Shown here: piece by piece, positions 39,840 to 41,895 of the stretch | Numbering within the stretch: position 1 is the first letter of the stretch | Layout: each line of letters opens with the position of its first letter | From: Planktotalea arctica | GTDB lineage: Bacteria > Pseudomonadota > Alphaproteobacteria > Rhodobacterales > Rhodobacteraceae | Assembly (NCBI RefSeq): GCF_002105285.1 | Contig: NZ_MUHR01000003.1 | Coordinates: forward strand, 1-64,000 | DNA length: 64,000 nucleotides | Direction: 5' to 3' | The notes under the pieces: model-generated | The model's database searches: none | Told to the model about the DNA's origin: nothing | Seen by the model: the letters and a program-made list of their open reading frames with translations, nothing else | Translations under genes and position numbers: made by a program

Positions 39840-40406
39840 GGGCGCGCGCTCCTGTGCTGCTCGTTAGCTATCCTCAAGCGGGGCAGGCGTGCAACCAAGT
39901 GCCAGTCAAAAACGTAAAATCGGAGTGGTTTTTCCCCTGCGCCGCAATTGCGATTTGCTATCGCTGAGCAAAGATCCCTGATCAAGGACCATATGTGTAG
40001 GATAGTAAATTTCTTAAAATTCAAGTCTGGCGCGCTCCAAATCATGTGCCTGCGTTCGCGCTTAGGGCATGCGCAAAGTAAGATGAACGCTGCTTTGGCG
40101 GTCTGATGCCTCCGCATCAAAGGGATGAATTGTCGTAAATTGATTCGCCATTAGGGGGAATTTTGGGGTGCAATTCCCTATATGCGTGTTGCCTGCATTC
40201 GCTTCCAGACATTCGTTTTCCAGACGGTTTGAAGTTTTTTTCAGCCTGTGGATCAATCTTGAAAGTGCTTTTTCGACAGAGTGTTGGCCATAGCTGTGCC
40301 TGTGGATAAGAGGGTTGATAAACACGCATTAAGATAAAAATACTTACAAACACACGTTATGCGTGCAAGCATTTCTCCTACCGAAACACCCAATAGGAGA
40401 ACGACA
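39840..40406. other. AT-rich intergenic region with two DnaA-like boxes
   Basis: This 567-bp stretch has no convincing gene. It contains TGTGGATCA at 40247-40255 and TGTGGATAA at 40301-40309, the second an exact complement of TTATCCACA, spaced 54 bp. An AT-rich run (about 40305-40370) lies just before the small repeat-protein gene. A hairpin GGGAATT / AATTCCC spans 40156-40178. It may hold promoters for both divergent genes; a replication-related role is possible but weakly supported. Confidence 0.5.
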
Positions 40407-40739
40407 ATGTCTGCACTTCGTAAAACCACGACACATTTCACATCCCTCAAGGCGGGCCTTCACAGCGGCACCGACACCCAGCTTTTCACCGCAGGCTATA
40501 CGCCAAGCGCTGACACCGGGCTTCACGGTGGCGCATGTACAGAAATGTTCACCGCCGGTTACTCGCCAAGTGTTCAGGCTGATCTGCATGAAGGCGACGC
40601 GGTCCAGCTTTTCACCGCAGGTTATGCTGCGACGCTTGGCGGAGCGAGCACGCATTTGTTTTCCTCCGGCTCTGCGCCGCGCAGTGAAAGCACCCAAATG
40701 AGCGGCACCCTGAGCGAGATGTTCTCCTCCGGTTCTTAA
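40407..40739 (+). CDS. Small tandem-repeat protein (LFTAGY repeats), function unknown
   Basis: The 110-residue protein begins MSALRKTTTHFTSLKA and then has three 21-residue units at 17-37, 38-58 and 59-79, with consensus LHxGxxxxLFTAGYxPS. Two shorter degenerate units follow (ASTHLFSSGSAPRSE and a last one ending EMFSSGS). It has no signal peptide or membrane helix that I recognise, one cysteine, and many Thr, Ser and Gly. AGGAG lies seven bases before the ATG, so translation should be strong; the frame upstream of it (from 40359) is not used. The partner gene starts 64 bp later. Repeated cores behind a leader-like start recall multi-core peptide precursors, but structural or binding roles are equally open. 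I do not recognise the family. Confidence 0.8.
   Translation: MSALRKTTTHFTSLKAGLHSGTDTQLFTAGYTPSADTGLHGGACTEMFTAGYSPSVQADLHEGDAVQLFTAGYAATLGGASTHLFSSGSAPRSESTQMSGTLSEMFSSGS
40455..40643 (+). repeat. Three 63-bp in-gene tandem repeats
   Basis: Units at 40455-40517, 40518-40580 and 40581-40643 each encode 21 residues. The best-conserved part encodes LFTAGY or MFTAGY, with synonymous differences among copies. That suggests selection on the peptide, not a recent DNA duplication. Confidence 0.85.
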
Positions 40740-40803
40740 CCTGCGCCAGAAGCCAGATAAATTGCCCGCCGGGGCCGTACATCAAGCGACAAGGAAACCT
40801 GAA

Positions 40804-41895
40804 ATGTCCAGCAACGTGATCGCACTGCCCCGGCACACTCTCTCCAAACCCCGGCCTTTCGCGGCTTTAGCGCAGAGCTTTGCGCGTCATCGCAGGGACC
40901 AGAGTGATGTCTATTGGCTTAAGGAGAACGCCGAACTTCTTAGCATTCTCGAGTGCACCGGTGCGAAAGTTCAGGCGCAGGATCTTGAGTGCTATCTGCC
41001 GTTCTATCAATCCCTACCCGAGCGGATCACCTTTTTCCCGCAGTATTATCGCTTCTTGACCTCCATCGCACTGGATCTTGAAGCTTTGGGCATAGAGGGC
41101 GGGCATGCCGCAACCCTATGCGCATTTGTGTACGAAAATAATTTGATCGAGGCTGAGCTGTCGGATCTACAGCGTGCAGAAACTGCGCGCCTGCTGATGC
41201 GGCGCAGCCTCGAGGTGCAAGGTGATCAAGCGCTGCGCCGCCGTCTGCACCGGTTTATCGACAATTGTGCGACCTTCGCATTGCCCAATCGCAAGGTCGC
41301 CTACGAGCTGACGCATATCGTGTTTTATCTCTCTGAGTATGGCCGGCGTGATCCCGAACTCAGCGCGCAGGCCTGCTCCAGTTTGATGTTCACGGGTATT
41401 CTTGCCCATTTGGAACAAAATGCCGATCTGCTTGCGGAAGTCTGCGTGGCTCTGCGCTACGCTGGGCGGGTGCCGCCCGCTCGCTGGGAGCAGTGGATTG
41501 AAACGGTGGTGAACGGTTTTGATCGCGTTGCCGATCTCGACGGCGCAGGGGACCATTATCATGAATATCTGGTCACCAACTGGGCCTGCGCGCAAAAAGA
41601 GAGTGAGGCGTTTGGCGCGCGTTATTGCGCTACAGGGCAGGGGTTTTTCAGTCCCGTTGTGCCGCTTGGCGCGTTATCTTTTTTGTCCGAGGTGCTGTTT
41701 GACTGGCAAGGACCGCGCATTGCGTCTTGGGCTGCAATGGAGGATCGTGTGTATGATGCGCTGCCGCATGACATTGCACAGCATTTGAGTGACGTCGTCG
41801 AGGCCAGCGCAGATTTCGACGCGCTGTTCTCGCATTTCGTGCGTGCACCGCGCGCGCGTAAAGCAACGCGCGCGCCGCTTATGCGCAATGTGTAG
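40804..41895 (+). CDS. Uncharacterised 363-residue protein, partner of the LFTAGY repeat protein
   Basis: I do not recognise this protein. It looks soluble and mainly helical, with a basic N-terminus (LSKPRPFAALAQSFARHRRDQ), a central HIVFYLSEYGRRDPEL block at 171-186, a histidine-rich acidic segment GDHYHEYLVTNWACAQ at 249-264 that could bind metal or act catalytically, and a basic C-terminus. Five or more cysteines are scattered. AAGGA lies eight bases before the ATG at 40804. It follows the repeat-protein gene by 64 bp on the same strand, so the two likely form one operon and a functional pair. It may belong to an existing domain of unknown function restricted to Rhodobacterales; a profile search would tell. 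Confidence 0.8.
   Translation: MSSNVIALPRHTLSKPRPFAALAQSFARHRRDQSDVYWLKENAELLSILECTGAKVQAQDLECYLPFYQSLPERITFFPQYYRFLTSIALDLEALGIEGGHAATLCAFVYENNLIEAELSDLQRAETARLLMRRSLEVQGDQALRRRLHRFIDNCATFALPNRKVAYELTHIVFYLSEYGRRDPELSAQACSSLMFTGILAHLEQNADLLAEVCVALRYAGRVPPARWEQWIETVVNGFDRVADLDGAGDHYHEYLVTNWACAQKESEAFGARYCATGQGFFSPVVPLGALSFLSEVLFDWQGPRIASWAAMEDRVYDALPHDIAQHLSDVVEASADFDALFSHFVRAPRARKATRAPLMRNV

Follow-up and report, generated by a model that had tools for sequence, protein, structure and literature searches.

Results and discussion

Here we describe a two-gene locus in which a small tandem-repeat protein probably serves as a multi-core precursor of the RiPP type, whose cores would be modified by the adjoining DUF6902 protein, perhaps as an epimerase. 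The locus lies in the window (the whole 64,000-nucleotide stretch of Planktotalea arctica DNA that was analysed), and the pair is widespread, being found in many marine Roseobacter-group bacteria. The evidence comes from the tight co-occurrence of the two genes, the homology of DUF6902 to DUF6895, residues that are conserved across phyla and lost together with the precursor, and cores that are uniform within an array and differ between species.

Structure of the putative precursor gene

The precursor gene (40407 to 40739, plus strand) was identified from the ORF list and family scans. It encodes a 110-aa tandem-repeat protein with an MSALRK-type leader and five units (MSALRKTTTHFTSLKAGLHSGTDTQLFTAGYTPSADTGLHGGACTEMFTAGYSPSVQADLHEGDAVQLFTAGYAATLGGASTHLFSSGSAPRSESTQMSGTLSEMFSSGS). 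AGGAGAA precedes its ATG, and AAGGA precedes the ATG of the 363-aa ORF that follows; both ORFs and both ribosome sites had been proposed in the initial annotation and are present. An in-frame ATG is also found at 40359, 5' of the ATG at 40407. Among 99 relatives, leaders of the form M-[TSN]-A-[LQ]-x-K are frequent.

The first three cores read FTAGY at a spacing of 21 residues (40485 to 40499, TTCACCGCAGGCTAT; 40548 to 40562, TTCACCGCCGGTTAC; 40611 to 40625, TTCACCGCAGGTTAT; all plus strand), and comparison of their nucleotide coding gives three distinct versions. When the protein was shuffled 20,000 times, no shuffle contained a 5-mer more than twice, which bears out the earlier claim of a three-fold repeat. 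Run on the DNA, Tandem Repeats Finder missed the array even with its threshold set low; the repeats have thus diverged in DNA and been kept as peptide, in agreement with the synonymous differences first noted. Units 4 and 5 had been described as degenerate. They carry FSSGS (40659 to 40673 and 40722 to 40736, plus strand), which is the most frequent core family-wide, and are therefore not products of decay. The fifth core forms the exact C-terminus, likewise in many relatives.

The precursor matches no Pfam or PHROGs family and falls under all NCBIfam cut-offs, and the family libraries searched recognised no RiPP features in it. Identity with an Ohr/OsmC peroxiredoxin was rejected (15.7 bits over 34 residues against an NCBIfam cut-off of 88.85). 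Since other species have different cores, we take the likeness between LFTAGY and Ohr to be fortuitous.

The partner protein belongs to DUF6902

The putative core-modifying enzyme is the 363-aa protein encoded at 40804 to 41895 (plus strand). It could not be assigned initially, and Pfam now places it in DUF6902 (PF21843; 430.7 bits, E 4.9e-129, residues 3-348; curated cut-off 27 bits). It also exceeds the curated cut-off of 23.8 bits for DUF6895 (PF21836) with 64.5 bits and E 1.4e-17. We file it under DUF6902, judging by the far stronger PF21843 match. A DUF6895 match at E 0.01 or better is present in 75 of 76 aligned DUF6902 proteins, and the homology between the two families is distant. A profile search against PDB chains found no sequence relative of DUF6902, and a plasmid search with the window protein as query matched nothing. 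No literature was found on DUF6902, nor did the core strings match any text in papers.

The AlphaFold2 model is confident and all-helical, with a mean pLDDT of 94.7. Foldseek returned no PDB match at E < 0.1, a negative result of no evidential weight; its weak resemblances were to helical-repeat peptide binders (armadillo, importin). The top ranks of VIA-align were alpha/alpha toroids, with Z up to 11.7, a value that helical proteins often reach. These toroids include GGTase beta, transcobalamin, complement TED, terpene cyclases and a lanthipeptide synthetase (8cav, Z 9.6). The modelled likeness to the alpha/alpha toroid fold is suggestive only.

Co-occurrence of the array and DUF6902

Among 395 genomes of the window's own family (Rhodobacteraceae), 109 have DUF6902. 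A profile of two repeat units, run on the same 395 genomes, matched in 100, and 99 of these also have DUF6902 (Fisher p about 2e-80). The sole array-only genome is represented by a single match at E 7e-4. Ten genomes have DUF6902 without a profile match. Seven of them contain a precursor with a divergent core, recognised by eye (MMCCS in L095, MMSCS in L098, MPTSN in L107, SPSC in L109, YIAGL in L111, STSSF in L112 and QSFSAP in L113), one has its locus at a contig end, and two (L094 and L114) are without a precursor. We also examined 80 named genomes, a set partly overlapping the 395; in 79 of them the array lies directly 5' of DUF6902, and the remaining locus is at a contig end. By its named relatives, P. 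frisia and strain HTCC2083, the window falls within or close to Planktotalea. The two genes are adjoining and co-directional in the loci examined.

The initial annotation had inferred a functional pairing and proposed looking for co-occurrence in related genomes. The genes do occur together, and two observations strongly support the pairing: DUF6902 is present in 99 of 100 array genomes, and where conserved residues are lost the precursor is lost with them (below). In two species of the window's genus DUF6902 is broken or partial (G004, at L005, L007, L009 and L010; G003, at L006). The system is thus dispensable, and the pair decays in some lineages.

Conserved residues and a natural knock-out

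Alignment of DUF6902 with three DUF6895 proteins gives the common residues Y167, H171, F174, G180, D208, E212, D250, Y252 and H253 (numbering of the window protein). Seven of these form the invariant set: Y167, H171, D208, E212, D250, Y252 and H253. The same motifs recur in DUF6895 proteins of Streptomyces, Kitasatospora and Pseudalkalibacillus. In the window the H171 codon is at 41314 to 41316, the D208 to E212 motif at 41425 to 41439, and D250-H-Y252-H253 at 41551 to 41562 (all plus strand). The last lies inside GDHYHEYLVTNW, and its D250 and YH are common to the aligned DUF6895 proteins. This segment had been read as catalytic or metal-binding; it holds three residues of the invariant set, whose members are of a catalytic type.

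Both H171 and D208 are kept in 183 of 185 distinct DUF6902 proteins. The exceptions are L094 (R and S) and L114 (Q and L), exactly the two precursor-less loci. Apparent changes of H253 in L004 and L112 were left out, these being at contig ends. The L094 protein is otherwise intact and may have acquired another role.

Cores are coherent within arrays and switch between species

Units were located from the left flank alone, which gave 664 units in 93 arrays. The majority core of its own array is present in 643 of them (96.8%). Inside arrays the mean identity at the four core positions is 0.96-0.98; for the linker it is about 0.3. Between species the core changes often: 48 distinct cores occur across 170 genomes, and at least 62 changes are required on the enzyme tree (97 tips). 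The 'DPVA' core that the script gave for L089 probably reflects an error of register. In sister species of the window the cores are FTSGS or FISGS.

Repeat cores that are not conserved between species had been named as grounds for abandoning the interpretation. The FTAGY core is indeed not conserved in that sense; the cores are instead array-coherent and species-specific, a pattern more informative than simple conservation. It says that all copies in an array would serve one product or one partner, re-coded between species. Mixed arrays, namely that of the window (three FTAGY, two FSSGS) and those of L067, L082, L085 and L092, look like arrays in transition. The arrays of L026, L032 and L045 have short extra core copies (EMFTSGLVQMFTSGL), which place two cores a few residues apart inside a single unit.

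Neighbouring genes and promoter boxes

xthA lies 5' of the pair in 138 of 140 loci and erpA/dgt lie 3' in 125; the pair is syntenic between them and thus mostly vertically inherited. An EamA-family permease gene (PF00892) is directly 3' of DUF6902 in 90 of the 140, usually within 40 bp or overlapping (for example L095:4109-5077), and is absent from the window's locus. There the pair has xthA, erpA-like, dgt-like and argS-like ORFs around it. The locus of most relatives is accounted for by xthA, the pair, EamA and erpA/dgt. Protease or cyclase genes were not found beside the pair, nor were lasso B (RRE/protease) and C (lactam synthetase) genes found at the locus. A phage or defence origin of the pair was rejected (no PHROGs or PADLOC match), as was an RNA element at the locus (Rfam matches tRNAs only).

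Upstream of the window's precursor is an exact DnaA-box-like site, TTATCCACA, on the minus strand at 40301 to 40309, 106 bp 5' of the ATG at 40407 (-106) in a place conserved in relatives. On the plus strand it reads TGTGGATAA, which we take to be a DnaA box. A second box with one mismatch (TGTGGATCA on the plus strand) lies on the minus strand at 40247 to 40255, 54 bp 5' of the first (-160), a spacing shared with relatives. Exact TGTGGATAA is present in 57 of 99 upstream regions, compared with 4.3% of random windows from the same loci, and in 48 of 76 named loci. Its places are fixed, near -110 and -164 or -186. Direct box pairs 52-77 bp apart number 38 in the 395 whole genomes, and 27 of the 38, counted over the listed places, are 5' of this operon. 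The box is absent at both precursor-less loci (L094 and L114). These candidate sites may bind DnaA and place the operon under its control. The spacings are fixed, at about 53 bp or at 75-76 bp, close to whole numbers of helical turns, as in the upstream regions of L003, L016 and L038. A replication origin or terminus was rejected as the cause of the boxes, there being no sustained GC-skew flip around 40.3 kb.

Relationship to DUF6895 and to known peptide systems

Multi-core precursors are known among RiPPs from the cyanobactins, the multi-core graspetides and the fungal Kex2-processed repeat proteins such as the ustiloxin precursor. In these, as in the window array, a leader is followed by repeated cores in constant flanks, giving many product copies per precursor (the comparison draws also on PMC7329392 and PMC8939145). 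DUF6902 is a different enzyme family, however, and no dedicated protease was found for the window array. Its core also differs in being only about five residues long and array-coherent, yet switching between species.

The only functional statement that we found for the DUF6895/DUF6902 superfamily is one entry in the reference list of PMC13352647 (ref 371; Shi et al., ACS Catal. 2026). Its title names a DUF6895 family epimerase in lasso peptide modification and calls that enzyme distinct. DUF6902 has in common with it a homologous domain (PF21836, as above), the seven invariant residues, and a small precursor-like ORF, which is present beside most DUF6895 genes examined. It differs in constituting a separate Pfam family, in having a tandem multi-core array as partner instead of a lasso precursor, and in that neither lasso B nor lasso C genes were seen at the locus. 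The MslH-type lasso peptide epimerase likewise acts on a ribosomal peptide, as is proposed here for DUF6902, but is metal-dependent according to the titles of refs 357-358 in PMC13352647, and DUF6902 has no sequence match to any PDB chain.

DUF6895 genes in Pseudomonadota, Actinomycetota and Bacillota are mostly 3' of small ORFs (L133:7254-7850, L134:7907-8338, L135:6849-7085, L255:6708-6905, L256:6329-6685 and L257:5398-5658). The layout of enzyme next to precursor therefore looks like a trait of the whole superfamily, and the tandem multi-core array like a trait of the DUF6902 branch. Several of these ORFs have a leader of the type SGLIDxxxTLExLV followed by an aromatic C-terminal core. In L133 there are two such ORFs of 65 aa, with the C-terminal ends GRWYVYVGTEE and GPWFVLAGDQT, L134 has one ORF with GPWYIYKE and GPWFVLKEG, and those of Kitasatospora and Streptomyces have YVLAWDKYVLVV-like ends. 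On scanning, the small ORFs of L133 to L135 matched no Pfam or NCBIfam family. The region L133:3314-9723 contains the DUF6895 gene, both precursor-like ORFs, a C39/C70-like peptidase and a methyltransferase-like ORF, with an MFS-like transporter nearby; it is a candidate for a fuller peptide cluster.

Two features of RiPPs are found in the roseobacter pair. A small precursor gene adjoins, in the loci examined, the DUF6902 gene, for which we infer a modifying role and which is present in 99 of 100 array genomes; and the precursor has a leader/core organisation, with a recurrent leader and semi-constant flanks round variable cores. We classify the system as RiPP-like on these features, modification and release of the core being presumed. 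It is not classified as a lasso peptide system, as no B or C genes are at the locus.

Proposed mechanism and alternatives

In the proposed mechanism a short leader (M-S-A-L-R-K...) is followed by repeated units of about 20-21 residues, in which semi-conserved flanks (G-D-A-V-E-M-F ... A-P) would display a short F-x-x-x-x core (FTAGY or FSSGS in the window). Binding of DUF6902 is probably to these flanks, and the enzyme would then modify one core after another. That the array is its multi-core substrate we consider likely. The best candidate chemistry, by analogy with the DUF6895 enzyme, is a cofactor-independent epimerisation of one core residue to the D form; this part is put forward tentatively, and on balance may well be wrong. 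H171, D208, E212, D250 and H253 would act in the pocket of the helical toroid-like fold. Host proteases may then release short peptides, and the EamA/DMT permease, the next gene in most relatives, may export the product. Many identical cores would give many copies of one species-specific product.

A multi-core precursor might instead meet an enzyme of other chemistry, such as dehydration, cyclisation or another cofactor-free change of a Ser/Thr-rich core. The cores are rich in Ser, Thr, Cys and Gly, the toroids that the predicted fold resembles include LanC-like and terpene cyclase domains, and DUF6902 is only distantly related to DUF6895. Against this, none of the resemblances reached E < 0.1 in Foldseek, and a side-chain-specific reaction needs a common residue, where no residue type except Ser/Thr is common to nearly all cores. 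Epimerisation is moreover the sole chemistry named for the superfamily, in the one title available. We regard such other chemistry as unlikely, if a serious candidate.

The initial annotation had also offered a scaffold with its binder: the repeat protein would remain uncleaved as a scaffold or adhesive, and DUF6902 would be a non-enzymatic binder or chaperone. An all-helical protein with a weak Foldseek likeness to armadillo and importin would suit a binder, several equal units would provide avidity, and co-conservation fits this reading too. Yet the best matches of the structural aligner are toroids, many of them enzymatic, the H/D/E/H set is invariant across phyla despite unrelated cores in the partner small ORFs, and the species-specific part is the core and not the flank. 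Precursor and enzyme, the other option first offered, is favoured because the superfamily has a reported peptide epimerase and because the invariant residues are of a catalytic type and common across phyla. We consider the scaffold improbable.

Uniform cores could also arise by concerted evolution alone, through unequal crossing-over or gene conversion of a neutral repeat. The long arrays of L012, L014 and L020 are near-identical by unit, codons included. However, core codons mismatch between copies at 0.534, about 80% of the 0.669 expected for independent draws, and it is the core residues that agree and not the linkers. The DUF6902 proteins of L195 and L205 share 96% identity, and every unit of one array reads FSSGS and every unit of the other FTSGS; their last units differ solely by TCT against ACT in otherwise identical coding, and the arrays differ there in every unit. 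Concerted evolution would also leave the link of the precursor with H171 and D208 unexplained, and we give it very little weight. Least plausible of all is a polymorphic bacteriocin-like peptide with DUF6902 as its cognate immunity protein: the core does diversify fast between close relatives with a similar partner (TSGS against SSGS in the pair just named), but an immunity protein is expected to covary with the core and DUF6902 is nearly constant, PADLOC found no match, the synteny between xthA and erpA/dgt indicates mostly vertical inheritance, and a modifying enzyme is reported among its relatives, at least by title.

Significance

The precursor with its modifying enzyme, our preferred reading, appears to be a so far undescribed machinery by which roseobacters make small modified peptides. 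The pair is carried by at least a quarter of the genomes sampled from this abundant marine family, yet no function has been described for either protein and none of the family libraries searched contains the precursor. Being compact, with two genes and dozens of naturally occurring core variants, the system may show how a peptide-modifying enzyme reads its substrate. The array-coherent switching of cores calls for an explanation, whether the cores act as a signal, as a toxin or as a code for binding. One speculative and rather improbable version is a species-specific short peptide signal with a D-amino acid, a pheromone code of roseobacters, in which DUF6902 would epimerise each core, selection on one product would keep the copies identical, the core would be re-coded as species diverge, and production would be tied to DnaA through the two phased promoter boxes. 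With this conserved pair of DnaA-box-like sites, a link between peptide production and replication would become directly testable.
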